DNA of 22,104 nt from a virus, in IMG/VR virus record IMGVR_UViG_3300042878_001483, positions 1 to 22,104 of that record. The stretch is one strand, 5' to 3'. The notes below the pieces were generated by a model. It saw nothing but the letters and a program-made list of their open reading frames with translations, searched no databases and was not told the origin of the DNA. Positions 1-4,468 of the stretch are shown here, one piece after another. The translations under genes and the position numbers were made by a program. Within the stretch, counting starts at the first letter, position 1; the number at the start of each line of letters is the position of its first letter.

Positions 1-814
1 AAATGTCGGACGATTGATAGAATGATTGGCATAGTATCTCCTTTGTCTTTTCAAAGTACCGCTGATTAAACTTACAGTCTCTTTGTCTAGGGTCTATAAA
101 GCTACCCCTACTGCAATTCATCCAAGGTTCCCAGTAATACCTTAGCTCACAATTACGGGACCGTCTTGCCCATTTATTGACGTTTAGAGCGGCACCGTCA
201 GTACCGTCCATATCAACTATACAAGGTGCAACTGCTTTAGGATCACTTCCATGTGATTCACAGATGTTTCCTTCAAGACAAAGTTGCCGGTAAGGATTGT
301 CCACCAAAACACAAGTAGGCATAGCAACAGATACCCGATCAGCCAAAGCTCTTCGTGCTCGTCCATTTAAATCACACTCCAAACACGGTGCTATAAAGCA
401 GGTTAAACTGCCTCTAGCTTTCGCTAAACGTTTTGCTGTTACTTCTAATACACGATTAAATCGTCTGTTAAGTCTGGACTTAGGGATATGCACCGCTCTA
501 CTAGCAGACGCCTTGTTGTAGCCCCACAACACCTCATACCGGCCACACCGCTTGTTACGCATACAAGGTGAGTTGATAAGATGCACCCGAACTACCTTGT
601 CTCTATCGTCCTTTAAAAGCCTGTCAGCACACTTACAATCAGGAGCAAAGGTTTTCTCTAGCCAGCCAATCTCAAGTGGCTCAAAGCCCTTATAGAGCTT
701 TACAGTGGCAGTACAGTTCCAATCCTTATGACAGAGAGCTAAAAAACTAGGTGCTGCTGTGGCTTGTTGTGTCCATAAAGATACTAATAGTATCGTTATG
801 AGCACCAATCTCAT
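1..814 (-). CDS. Cysteine-rich exported protein of unknown function, 3' end cut by the window edge
   Basis: Reading the minus strand from the ATG at 814-812 gives 271 codons without a stop, so the gene continues beyond the left edge. The product begins MRLVLITILLVSLW, a hydrophobic signal-peptide core, followed by an ATA-A/P cleavage-like site near residues 18-22, so export is likely. The remainder has 17 cysteines in about 250 residues, suggesting disulphides in an oxidising compartment. Distinct blocks include KVVRVHLIN, RCGRYEVLWGY, CIVDMDGTDG and YYWEPWMNC. The alternation of hydrophobic strands ending in polar or acidic residues could fit a barrel hydrolase, but I recognise no named family. 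The start overlaps the stop of the upstream holin-like gene by four bases (ATGA), so it belongs to the fibre-lysis operon. A role in envelope lysis, degradation or superinfection control is inference. That it is a gene is nearly certain; its function is unknown. Confidence 0.88.
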   Translation of the reverse strand, partial: MRLVLITILLVSLWTQQATAAPSFLALCHKDWNCTATVKLYKGFEPLEIGWLEKTFAPDCKCADRLLKDDRDKVVRVHLINSPCMRNKRCGRYEVLWGYNKASASRAVHIPKSRLNRRFNRVLEVTAKRLAKARGSLTCFIAPCLECDLNGRARRALADRVSVAMPTCVLVDNPYRQLCLEGNICESHGSDPKAVAPCIVDMDGTDGAALNVNKWARRSRNCELRYYWEPWMNCSRGSFIDPRQRDCKFNQRYFEKTKEILCQSFYQSSDI

Positions 815-1053
815 TTTTCTAAAGCCTTATCGAGCTTACCTTCCATCCGTTCAAGCCGCTGCTTGATATGGCCTAGCTCAGCTTGGATCACTTGAACTTC
901 CATACTTACCTTGTACTTACTCTCTTCAAGCTCACGCAAAGAGTTTTTAACCGCTCGGTAATCGAGTCCTACCATGCTGATAACAATGCCGATAATGGCC
1001 TTGATACCCATGTCTAACCAATAGCGCAGTTGGGTGAAATCGTGATCCGTCAA
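811..1053 (-). CDS. Holin-like small membrane protein with C-terminal coiled coil
   Basis: 80 aa. Residues about 15-31 (MGIKAIIGIVISMVGLD) form one hydrophobic segment. A charged heptad-like helix follows to the end (ELGHIKQRLERMEGKLDK). This single-membrane-segment plus coiled-coil design and the size fit phage holins or holin-associated proteins. The position, just after a DUF5675 gene and before an exported protein, supports a lysis role. The start is TTG (1053-1051), which overlaps the TGA of the upstream gene. A strong GGGAGG lies five to six bases before it, and no in-frame ATG exists nearby upstream; the first ATG inside the frame would cut into the membrane segment. It could instead be an i-spanin-like protein or a small structural membrane protein. 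Confidence 0.75.
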   Translation of the reverse strand: MTDHDFTQLRYWLDMGIKAIIGIVISMVGLDYRAVKNSLRELEESKYKVSMEVQVIQAELGHIKQRLERMEGKLDKALEK

Positions 1054-1469
1054 TGTATCCTCCCACTGCCATAGGCATCTATCACGATAAGCTCTGCACT
1101 AGGCTCACCGTTCATAATGACCATGAACCTATCAAAAGCAGCTTTACTGGCAAGGATGCTTGTTTCTTTGTCTACTCGACCGTATTGCAAGCCAACTAGG
1201 ATACACCCATGAGTGTCCTTGTGCGTATTTCCAGCATGAAAAAGAATGTGAGAACGCTCAGGTACATCCATCACCTGATACGTTACTCCAAAGCGAGGAG
1301 AGCGATGCAATTTAATAGTGTAACGACCAACAGGGATGCAAGACACCTGGCGCTCATTATTACGCCAGGCATCTTCTAGTGTTACCATCTCAGGCGAGTC
1401 ATCAATACAAAGCACACCAAGCGTTGCGCCGTTATGCTCTGTAACTCTGACTAACCTGAGCTGCTTCAT
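1050..1469 (-). CDS. DUF5675 family protein, possible peptidoglycan-active lysis protein
   Basis: 139 aa, full length for the family. It has the arrangement I associate with DUF5675: a CIPVGRY block (residues 44-50), SPRFGVTYQV (57-66), VPERSHILFHAGN (69-81) and DTHGCILVG (85-93). No catalytic activity is established for this family to my knowledge. The conserved His78...His87-Gly-Cys89 resembles the His...SHGC signature of L,D-transpeptidase (YkuD) domains, though the His-Cys distance is shorter. It starts at an ATG overlapping the fibre stop (ATGA) and ends overlapping the holin-like gene. No other lysozyme, amidase or transglycosylase is visible in this stretch, so it is the only apparent cell-wall enzyme candidate here. 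Family assignment is fairly sure; the lysis role is inference from neighbours. Confidence 0.82.
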   Translation of the reverse strand: MKQLRLVRVTEHNGATLGVLCIDDSPEMVTLEDAWRNNERQVSCIPVGRYTIKLHRSPRFGVTYQVMDVPERSHILFHAGNTHKDTHGCILVGLQYGRVDKETSILASKAAFDRFMVIMNGEPSAELIVIDAYGSGRIH

Positions 1470-2818
1470 GCCTCTAGTGCCGCGATACGAGCTTCTAGTG
1501 CTTCTACTTTGGCGTTAAGTTCTTTGATAGAATTAACGGCTAAAGACATCATGTGGCCATAGCTTAATCCATCAGGCGTATTGTCTGCCGCATATTGGAT
1601 AAACTCTGGCATCCCTGCTTCTAAAACTTCTTCCGCTATCAATCCCGCATATTGTGCAGAAGGATTAGTTTTGTCTTTGTAGTAAACAGGTCGAAGAGTT
1701 AATAACTCGGCTAATCCTTTATCATAATCTTCAACGTCTGTTTTGTATTTTATAGAAGAAACTGATCTGTAAAACGTGCCATCACTTCCTACGTACATAT
1801 TAGCGCCAAGACCTAATGTGTTATTATAGGGAGAACCTGCAAGCGTTCCTGAGTTTATAAACCCATCATTTCGTATGTAAAACACACTAGCAGGTGTAGA
1901 GTTTTGTAATGCAAGGCATGTAGCTGTTGAATCTGCGGTAGTACCTTGTACAGAAAACCTATTGGTAGCTGCTGGAGTTAATCCAATTCCAACGTTACCT
2001 GCGCTGGTAATTCTCATCCGCTCGGCTGGCGAACCACTACCATCGGGGCTTGTGTTAAAGGTTAATCTTGTAGGCATATCATTTGAAGCACCAGGAATAC
2101 CGTCAACTGCTGCTAAAATAATTGCACCACGAGTGTAATTGGTGCCATTAGCGCCAAAGAAATCTAACTGCCCTAAGCTATCGCCACTTTGCACAATAGT
2201 ATTTGTACTAGCATCGACTCCACGAGATTTGTAGAATCTTACACGAGCACCACCTGCATCTGCGCTATATTGACCAAGGTCAGTAACATTACTAACAGCA
2301 AAATTAGTTCCGTTGTATGTTGCCTCGTAAATTATACCTTTCTGCAAATAGAGGAACCCATTCAAAGGAGTATTAGAACCTAGCCCTACGCATGTTTTAG
2401 CTCCAATGCCATTCACATTCAAAGTGACTGCGGCTTCAGCAGCGGTATAGAACCCTGAAATAAACCGAAAGACCTGACCTGTTTTGTATGCAGTAATTGC
2501 TGGGGTAGCTGATGCAGTTTGTGCCGCTGCTGTTCCTGCGGTTGTACCTAACCAAAGAAAATCACCATCCTGAACCTGGCCAACTTGAGCAGCATCATTA
2601 CGAAGAGTGCCAGCAGCAAGGTTAGTAATCTTGTTACTACCCATGCTCAAAGCACCAGTCATTCCATTTTGACCAGTCTTGTTTAGGCACTGATCGATAC
2701 CAGTGGTGAAATCGTTGTCTTGGGTATCATGACGACCAGCCTCGATACCAATGCCATTCGCTGCATCGCTAACCCATGTTGGATTTGCTCTCGTAAAGTT
2801 TCCCCCGCTCCAAGCCAT
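1466..2818 (-). CDS. Tail fibre/tailspike-like protein with C-terminal S74 intramolecular chaperone
   Basis: 450 aa. The N-terminal third carries the fibre-type segment GALSMGSNKITNLAAGT (about residues 54-70). The middle has beta-rich receptor-binding-like stretches, including GDSLGQLDFFGANGTNY and MRITSAGNVGIG, both typical of trimeric phage fibres. Residues 354-450 form a Peptidase_S74 chaperone domain: SSIKYKTDVEDYDKGL, then YAGLIAEEVLEAGMPE, YGHMM and a closing coiled coil (VEALEARIAALEA). S74 domains fold the trimer and then cut themselves off with a Ser-Lys dyad; here Ser354 and Lys359 have the expected five-residue spacing. RBS AGGAGA sits five bases before the ATG. It is the last structural gene before the lysis cassette and overlaps it by ATGA. 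It likely binds a host surface glycan, but the receptor cannot be read from sequence. Confidence 0.9.
   Translation of the reverse strand: MAWSGGNFTRANPTWVSDAANGIGIEAGRHDTQDNDFTTGIDQCLNKTGQNGMTGALSMGSNKITNLAAGTLRNDAAQVGQVQDGDFLWLGTTAGTAAAQTASATPAITAYKTGQVFRFISGFYTAAEAAVTLNVNGIGAKTCVGLGSNTPLNGFLYLQKGIIYEATYNGTNFAVSNVTDLGQYSADAGGARVRFYKSRGVDASTNTIVQSGDSLGQLDFFGANGTNYTRGAIILAAVDGIPGASNDMPTRLTFNTSPDGSGSPAERMRITSAGNVGIGLTPAATNRFSVQGTTADSTATCLALQNSTPASVFYIRNDGFINSGTLAGSPYNNTLGLGANMYVGSDGTFYRSVSSIKYKTDVEDYDKGLAELLTLRPVYYKDKTNPSAQYAGLIAEEVLEAGMPEFIQYAADNTPDGLSYGHMMSLAVNSIKELNAKVEALEARIAALEA
1469..1759 (-). other. S74 chaperone domain of the tail fibre
   Basis: Encodes residues 354-450 of the fibre. 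The predicted autocleavage is immediately before Ser354, with Lys359 as partner, and would release a 97-residue chaperone after trimer folding. Confidence 0.8.
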
Positions 2819-2833
2819 TGTCGTCTCCTGATA

Positions 2834-4468
2834 TTATTGTATTAAAGCCAAAGCTTCTTCAGTTGTTAATTCTCGTGATGATGGAGCCGATACTTGTTGT
2901 AAAGGCGTCATCATTTGCTCTTGAGGCAATCCATATCCAGATAAAGCTGGTGCTAATGCGCTACTGCGTAAGACTGTGCTTGGAATACCAGTAATCAATC
3001 CACCTTGCCCGCCAACACCTGCCAAAGCCTGACTTAATCGACTTAATCCACGACCAGCTAATTGTTGACCTTTAGGGGTGGCTAATAATCGCAAGCCCAT
3101 TGCACCAGCAGCACCGGCTTCTGGTTCGCCAAACAATCCTCCTAGAGTAGCGCCTCCAACTAATCCAGCGCCGCCAGTAGTGTAAAGTTGCCGCATGGCA
3201 TTGTTAATAATTGACTCTCCTTCTGTAGCTCTTTTGGTGCGTTCTATGATTGGTTCAACTACAATTAAGTCTTGCTTTTGTTTGTTAAGGTCTTTCACTT
3301 CAGGAGCATATTTTTCTATGTGCTCTTTCATTTCACGATAGAGCGTTCTCCAAAAACCTGGATCTGATTGTGGTGAGTTTTTCCAGTTTTCACCGATAAT
3401 TTTCTTTTGTGTGTTCAGATAGGTAAGTTGACCTTTGCCTTCTCGCTTTAAAGCATCTGAATATCGCTCTAATTGAGAGAGGTATCTGTCTACGTCATCA
3501 GCAGCTACACGTTCAGATATATATTTCAATGTCTTATCAAAGGAGGGATTTGATATAGCTTTTGTGCGTTTTTGTAAGACAGATTGAATCTGATTTTCAA
3601 TTCCCTCTTTAGCGTCTTGCAAACGGCCATACATCACATTGGGGTCAAGCGAATTGCCGAGAGTTTTATTTTCTATTACTTGATTCAAAGATTTTTGAAC
3701 TTGAGTTTGAAAATCACCTTGAACGCTTTCAATAATACTGTTCCTAGCTGTTTTTGTATAATCAGATTTACGAGCACCCAGTGCTGTTCTTACTAAGGCT
3801 TCACCTGTCCTCTTTGTTAAAGGAGCTGCTGCTCTTGCCCCAGCGCCAATTACTGGAAGCAATCCGGCAACTCCTCCTCCAATGCCACCACTTAATGTGG
3901 CTAGACTGGCAATATCTTCTGCTGGAACTTCAACGCTTAAAGCGGGAGCTGCACTTAAAGCCGCTGAAACAGGCACAGCTCTTGCCAATGCCGGAACTAA
4001 TGCTTGCCCTCGCTGAACAAGTGCTGCTTTTGGTATTGGAGCTTTCAAGGCGCCAGCTAATTCTACAATTGGTGCGCCACCAATAAGTGGTACAGACTCA
4101 GGAACAACATAACCTTGTTCAGTCTGTGCCGCACGACCAAGAGCTTTTAGTTCTGCTAACTTAGCTCTTTCTTGTTCAAAACTTGTAGCTGAAGGTTGTC
4201 CTGTATATAGACTTGCAAGGTCTGAGAAAATAGCAGATCCGCCAGCAGCTACATTTCCTGTTAGTCCGTAGGTGAGAGCATCAGCAAGACTTAATAGTCC
4301 ACCTGCCCCAACGGCAGCAGCTCTACGATATGGAGAACTTACATCCAGTAAACTAGGTTCATAACTGGGTTGTAAAGATGAGGTTGAAACCATTGAAGTG
4401 CTTGAAAGATTTGGAGAACCTTCTAACAAACGCAATGCTTCTTCGGTTGTAAGTTCTTTATCAGCCAT
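2834..4468 (-). CDS. Putative internal virion/ejection protein with the same motif at both ends
   Basis: 544 aa. Small-residue-rich hydrophobic stretches at about residues 50-90 and 195-215 (GGIGGGVAGLLPVIGAG) could become membrane-active. They are followed by a long charged helical region (about 220-430, with QTQVQKSLNQVIE and ERYSDALKREGKGQ) and a second Gly/Ala-rich stretch. This layout matches proteins that podoviruses eject with their DNA, but I see no lysozyme or transglycosylase motif. The motif ELTTEEAL occurs at residues 5-12 and again at 533-540, four residues from the C-terminus. The gene lies between another ejection-type gene and the fibre. The RBS is weak, so translation may be coupled to the gene just upstream. 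Structural role fairly likely; exact job unknown. Confidence 0.72.
   Translation of the reverse strand: MADKELTTEEALRLLEGSPNLSSTSMVSTSSLQPSYEPSLLDVSSPYRRAAAVGAGGLLSLADALTYGLTGNVAAGGSAIFSDLASLYTGQPSATSFEQERAKLAELKALGRAAQTEQGYVVPESVPLIGGAPIVELAGALKAPIPKAALVQRGQALVPALARAVPVSAALSAAPALSVEVPAEDIASLATLSGGIGGGVAGLLPVIGAGARAAAPLTKRTGEALVRTALGARKSDYTKTARNSIIESVQGDFQTQVQKSLNQVIENKTLGNSLDPNVMYGRLQDAKEGIENQIQSVLQKRTKAISNPSFDKTLKYISERVAADDVDRYLSQLERYSDALKREGKGQLTYLNTQKKIIGENWKNSPQSDPGFWRTLYREMKEHIEKYAPEVKDLNKQKQDLIVVEPIIERTKRATEGESIINNAMRQLYTTGGAGLVGGATLGGLFGEPEAGAAGAMGLRLLATPKGQQLAGRGLSRLSQALAGVGGQGGLITGIPSTVLRSSALAPALSGYGLPQEQMMTPLQQVSAPSSRELTTEEALALIQ
2837..2872 (-). repeat. C-terminal copy of the ELTTEEAL motif
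   Basis: Encodes ELTTEEALALIQ, the last 12 residues of the 544-aa protein. It matches the copy at its N-terminus, and the underlying DNA is also alike (gcttcttc-gttgt). Confidence 0.8.
4424..4456 (-). repeat. N-terminal copy of the ELTTEEAL motif
   Basis: Encodes ELTTEEALRLL, residues 5-15 of the same protein. Eight residues in a row are identical to the C-terminal copy. Confidence 0.8.

Follow-up and report, generated by a model that had tools for sequence, protein, structure and literature searches.

The window analysed here, a stretch of 22,104 nucleotides of viral DNA (IMG/VR record IMGVR_UViG_3300042878_001483), carries at its left end, on the minus strand, a lysis cassette in which a gene for a cysteine-rich protein lies between other lysis genes. 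In the order of reading, the cassette consists of a DUF5675 gene, a gene for a protein with a transmembrane (TM) segment and a coiled coil, the cysteine-rich gene (hereafter the barrel gene, after the predicted fold of its product), and a holin gene of the Pam3 gp28 family. The features are as follows, with residues numbered along the barrel protein:

1050 to 1469, minus strand: DUF5675 protein (PF18925) with the HAGNTHKDTHGC motif, likely a cytoplasmic endolysin or L,D-transpeptidase-like enzyme
811 to 1053, minus strand: 80-aa protein that combines a single TM segment at its N-terminus with a coiled coil, of i-spanin-like topology and assigned to no family
2 to 814, minus strand: coding sequence of the cysteine-rich barrel protein (putatively exported), of whose roughly 274 codons the window contains 271
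755 to 814, minus strand: Sec signal peptide predicted from sequence pattern, codons 1-20, with an ATA|A site of the signal peptidase I type and without a lipobox
368 to 400, minus strand: CFIAPCLECDL, end of predicted strand 4, with invariant E146 and D148 (candidate acid/base)
251 to 265, minus strand: ICESH (residues 184-188), predicted strand 6, with invariant C185, E186 and H188
203 to 223, minus strand: CIVDMDG, predicted strand 7, in which D201 and D203 are invariant and may serve as metal ligands or provide the second catalytic acid
113 to 139, minus strand: YYWEPWMNC, predicted strand 8, with Y227, W228 and N233 invariant and E229 not universal
1 to 32, minus strand: beginning (MPIILSIVRHL) of the holin gene that follows (PF23987 in relatives) and shares its first bases with the 3' end of the barrel gene

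The barrel reading frame runs from 814 to 2 without an internal stop, encodes 17 cysteines in its 271 codons, and its start overlaps, as ATGA, the end of the gene at 1053 to 811, all of which agrees with the initial annotation. Judged from the closest relatives, the last three codons and the stop fall past the window edge: in L002 (97% identical) and L003 (93%) the C-terminus runs on as CSR and then stops. The gene is therefore intact, and the concern that it might be a degraded one falls away. The overlap with the TM/coiled-coil gene is itself a stable property of the locus, measuring 4 nt in 107 of 110 distinct relatives, with a single case of 32 nt and a single case of a 2-nt gap.

The four-gene order is invariant, and the cassette context is well supported. 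The DUF5675 and TM/coiled-coil genes precede the barrel gene in all 102 distinct loci with upstream flank, while a 61-aa protein follows it in 107 of the 108 with downstream flank. Of three members of this downstream protein that were tested, two score above the cut-off of PF23987 (Phage_holin_10, the Pam3 gp28 family). In most loci the start of its gene and the 3' end of the barrel gene overlap by 25 to 46 bases; in the window the holin gene starts at position 32, minus strand. The upstream 80-aa gene, which had been described as holin-like, gave no match to a holin-family profile and is probably not the holin; that role falls to the gene overlapping the 3' end. The topology of the upstream 80-aa protein resembles that of an i-spanin, a likeness that we take as a lead only. 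DUF5675 relatives carry a transpeptidase annotation in several phages and the aligned motif, H-x-G-N...T-x-G-C, is a fitting one, so that the DUF5675 protein is likely to be the endolysin of the cassette. A search through the TM/coiled-coil protein for clade members without a barrel gene returned two close matches only.

Several observations were made elsewhere in these genomes. Positions 1466 to 2818 of the window (minus strand) encode a tail-fibre protein with a C-terminal Peptidase_S74 endosialidase-type chaperone domain, and blastp identities show this fibre to differ strongly among relatives that are otherwise syntenic. In the related genome G001 (contig L221), the terminase large subunit gene (1500 to 3944, minus strand) contains a long, intein-like insertion starting CVAVGTPIRMADGTFKPIEQIQVGE after KYQGQNL; the terminase of the window has no CVAVGTPIRMADGTFKPIEQIQVGE insertion at that place. 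Genome G002 holds two similar small genes of the 'MSKYxLFQYC' type about 34 kb apart (65 to 385 of L223, and G002 33809 to 34123, in L224, both on the minus strand), which are either paralogues or an assembly repeat. Finally, an SLT-like lytic transglycosylase motif (ESGYKQKAESRVGARGLSQVMP) lies in a short early-region ORF of two related genomes (L221, 8122 to 8607, and L223, 13031 to 13519, both on the plus strand); these ORFs have an N-terminal hydrophobic segment and represent a possible second murein enzyme.

Scans of viral contigs with the barrel protein retrieved 54 relatives in a first round, 102 in a second and 162 when led by a diverged member, so that homologues are encoded on more than 160 IMG/VR contigs. 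Searches of other collections found none in 50,697 phage records of a cultured-phage collection and none in 72,556 plasmids; two pattern scans across genomes from 84,980 species of bacteria and archaea found none with the patterns used, and thus no prophage copy of the gene. Searches of Pfam, PHROGs, NCBIfam and PDB sequences, with single members and with the whole family, gave nothing significant, in keeping with the earlier remark that the protein belongs to no named family. From the viral-contig scans we drew 110 distinct full-length barrel proteins as a conservation set. Pairwise dN/dS within the family is 0.10-0.21 and, on these sequence comparisons, the gene is under purifying selection; together with its presence in more than 160 viral contigs, this places the family far beyond chance. 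The barrel proteins of these uncultured phages thus make up a new family, which occupies a known kind of place and has a recognisable fold.

Fifteen cysteines are invariant in the conservation set (residues 28, 34, 60, 62, 84, 90, 139, 144, 147, 168, 179, 185, 198, 222 and 234), and a sixteenth, Cys 247, is present in 109 of the 110 proteins. Two further C-terminal cysteines, at about residues 262 and 272, occur in 70% of proteins; they were set aside, as both fall within the stretch shared with the holin gene, and a clade in which the overlap is shorter lacks them. Owing to that overlap, conservation at the C-terminus may come in part from the holin reading frame. The export signature was judged by simple patterns on the 110 N-termini: a hydrophobic core is present in the barrel protein, an AxA-type site occurs in 108 of the 110, and no member has a lipobox within residues 11-40. 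The signal-peptide features of the initial annotation, and the missing lipobox, are hence family-wide, and for want of a lipobox by this pattern we reject a barrel protein acting as a lipoprotein or o-spanin. Conserved cysteines, hydrophobic core, AxA-type site and lack of a lipobox together fit Sec export followed by disulphide formation outside the cytoplasm.

A first AlphaFold2 model, built with 30 sequences, reached a pLDDT of 80. A second, built on L002 with 51 sequences, reached a pLDDT of 90.3 and a pTM of 0.86, its five models being similar (84-90), and we are confident from this prediction that the barrel protein is an eight-stranded TIM barrel. The predicted strands span residues 20-22, 47-52, 73-78, 137-142, 169-172, 184-188, 198-201 and 224-227. 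The blocks VVRVHLIN, CIVDMDG and YYWEPW had been read as parts of a hydrolase barrel, and in the model they correspond to strands 3, 7 and 8. Their proposed role as acid-bearing elements held in part: the blocks do lie on strands, but the acid of YYWEPW, E229, is kept in 75% of proteins and is Ser in a diverged clade, which rules it out as a universal catalytic acid. The invariant acids are instead E146 (in CLECDL), D201 and D203. The motif DxDGT is motif I of HAD phosphatases, but such a reading of DMDGTDG is also ruled out, since residue 201 lies on barrel strand 7 and the segment often reads DLDGID or DLDGVD.

Structural comparison with VIA-align gave, for both models, top rows filled almost entirely by clan GH-A glycosidases. 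The leaders were the GH5 mannanases 1qnp and 3wh9, each at Z 14.4 (rmsd 3.3 and 3.6 over 227 and 230 aligned residues, respectively), followed by GH5, GH2, GH35 and GH140 enzymes at Z of about 11 to 13. None of the Foldseek matches in the PDB fell below an E of 0.001 (best E 0.01), and the rows were a mixture of glycoside hydrolases, LeuA, aldolases and sugar epimerases; as these E-values are weak and the rows mixed, the GH-A-like assignment rests on the structural aligner, and both lists speak only for the families that they contain. Profile comparison with GH5 mannanases gave no signal (hhalign probability 0.2%), and a PDB profile search with the barrel family gave no match.

Conservation is concentrated where a TIM-barrel enzyme would carry its active site. 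We defined the C-terminal face as five positions from the end of each strand, where TIM-barrel active sites sit; mean entropy there is 0.80 bits, against 1.73 bits at the N-terminal face (n=110). Eight of 18 invariant polar residues lie on the C-terminal face and one on the opposite face (permutation p about 0.0025). H78, D172, H188, D201 and Y227, which close strands 3, 5, 6, 7 and 8, are invariant in all 110 proteins, as is E146 after strand 4. The catalytic pair of clan GH-A consists of a Glu on strand 4 and a nucleophile Glu on strand 7, and in most families the acid/base Glu that closes strand 4 has an Asn before it. In the barrel family, position 145 is an invariant Leu rather than Asn, and strand 7 has no conserved Glu among the 110 proteins, D201 and D203 being present in all. 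Hence, the predicted (beta/alpha)8 barrel of GH-A is present, while the strand 7 nucleophile Glu and profile similarity are absent; as that Glu is a defining feature, we do not file the protein in GH-A, though it may work like a member of that clan.

The reading that we favour, to which we give about an even chance, is that the barrel protein is a Sec-exported (beta/alpha)8-barrel hydrolase of envelope glycans, used at lysis and a fixed part of the cassette. The protein would presumably be produced late, from the late operon and together with the lysis proteins, then exported through Sec and processed by signal peptidase I; once beyond the inner membrane it would fold oxidatively, with about eight disulphides holding the barrel together. 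The general acid would be E146, where strand 4 ends, partnered by D201 or D203 where strand 7 ends. The substrate would be a host envelope glycan, either peptidoglycan strands or an outer polysaccharide. Given the DUF5675 protein and the SLT-like gene of two related genomes, there is no obvious need for another murein enzyme; the early-region gene means that murein may already be covered, and outer polysaccharide stays a good alternative. As the holin releases the putative DUF5675 endolysin, glycan cutting by the barrel protein would let the envelope open fully. Family, fold, conserved face, export signature and cassette are supported by prediction and comparison; the glycosidase chemistry, the substrate, the timing and the part in lysis we infer. 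A bolder form of this proposal, which we put forward tentatively and consider doubtful, is that of a Sec-exported, disulphide-rich TIM-barrel glycosidase family with Glu/Asp rather than Glu/Glu catalysis, dedicated to an extra lysis step and perhaps replacing the spanin.

The same fold and export signal could serve a secreted depolymerase, clearing capsule or exopolysaccharide around the burst cell and freeing the progeny, with no part in opening the cell. An exported, disulphide-rich protein suits the outside, and the glycosidase-like fold is nearest to GH5 glycanases; nevertheless, lysis genes enclose this one on both sides, no carbohydrate-binding domain turned up in the protein, and phage depolymerases are usually tail proteins of the virion, so that we regard this as unlikely. 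We hold it decidedly unlikely that the protein is an exported metal-dependent TIM-barrel enzyme, similar to a sugar isomerase, epimerase or AP endonuclease, in which E146, D172, H188 and D201/D203 are ligands at strands 4 to 7. This invariant E, D, H, D series on four successive strands does resemble the Glu-Asp-His-Glu metal site of D-tagatose and L-ribulose 3-epimerases, Foldseek places an L-ribulose 3-epimerase high in its list, among the top rows, and xylose isomerase scored Z 10.5 with the first model. Against this, the GH-A glycosidases score higher (14.4 versus about 10.5) and fill the list of the second model, the candidate ligands are closely spaced (26, 16 and 13 residues), and we know of no 3-epimerase of the metal type that is exported or cysteine-rich.

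A further explanation, which we consider very unlikely, is that the barrel and TM/coiled-coil proteins form a non-canonical envelope-disrupting pair in place of i-spanin and o-spanin, the barrel being a binding scaffold whose catalysis is secondary or lost. Both genes are present at every locus with flank, the partner combines an N-terminal TM segment with a coiled coil, and the ATGA overlap recalls that of overlapped spanin pairs. A simple lipobox scan found no o-spanin-like lipoprotein in the window or in G001, and about 13% of surveyed phages are without a recognisable spanin (PMC6139136). That scan is crude, however, and G002 and G003 have early-region ORFs that resemble lipoproteins, so a spanin may be encoded there; moreover, a barrel protein without a lipobox would have no outer-membrane anchor, and the invariant residues on its catalytic face point to an enzyme. 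That the protein acts in superinfection exclusion, as also suggested initially, or modifies the surface is extremely unlikely: apart from its being an exported phage protein nothing speaks for it, and the gene ends the late operon between endolysin-like and holin genes at every checked locus, and the scans of the genome collection found no prophage copy of it.

Read as an envelope-glycan hydrolase, the barrel protein offers a testable candidate for the means by which phages lacking a recognisable spanin pass the outer envelope. The family has been left blank by every annotation library used here, and its phage group has no cultured member; encoded in all the cassettes checked in this widespread group, it provides a lead towards new envelope-degrading enzymes.

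With the spanins (Rz/Rz1 and unimolecular), the barrel protein has in common its position in the cassette, the ATGA overlap with the TM/coiled-coil gene and the use of cysteines; unlike them, it is no lipoprotein and is predicted to be a folded barrel of 250 residues rather than a short helical or proline-rich peptide. LysB is an esterase for mycolata and has a different fold. The likeness to this mycobacteriophage enzyme, which detaches the outer layer, would be one of role only: LysB is an extra, envelope-acting enzyme of the lysis cassette besides holin and endolysin (PMC8309991), as the barrel protein would be. Endolysins of the Sec-exported, holin-independent type, such as M4Lys (PMC7143992), likewise would be analogous as lysis enzymes that leave the cytoplasm without a holin; those described act on murein, whereas the barrel protein, a predicted TIM barrel, may act on murein or on an outer polysaccharide.

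As regards fold, three uncharacterised proteins of uncultured Caudovirales in BFVD (A0A6J5M538, A0A6J5SYH0 and A0A6J5MYV4) share the predicted barrel (Foldseek E 3.5e-17 to 2e-9, query TM 0.67-0.83), while differing in sequence (22-24% identity) and in length (268-451 aa). The GH-A enzymes differ in having no detectable sequence homology to the barrel protein, which has no Asn before its strand 4 Glu and has Asp201/Asp203 in place of the strand 7 Glu; compared with the GH5 mannanases it is also shorter, has 16 conserved cysteines and is encoded by a phage lysis gene. Nonetheless, the GH5 beta-mannanases of Trichoderma reesei (1qnp) and Aspergillus (3wh9) align as TIM barrels with the same strand order over 227-230 residues, and the likeness extends to a Glu predicted to end strand 4, an invariant His on strand 6 and an invariant Trp on strand 8, and, by eye, to cysteines placed near the ends of strands 1, 4 and 7 as in 1qnp.
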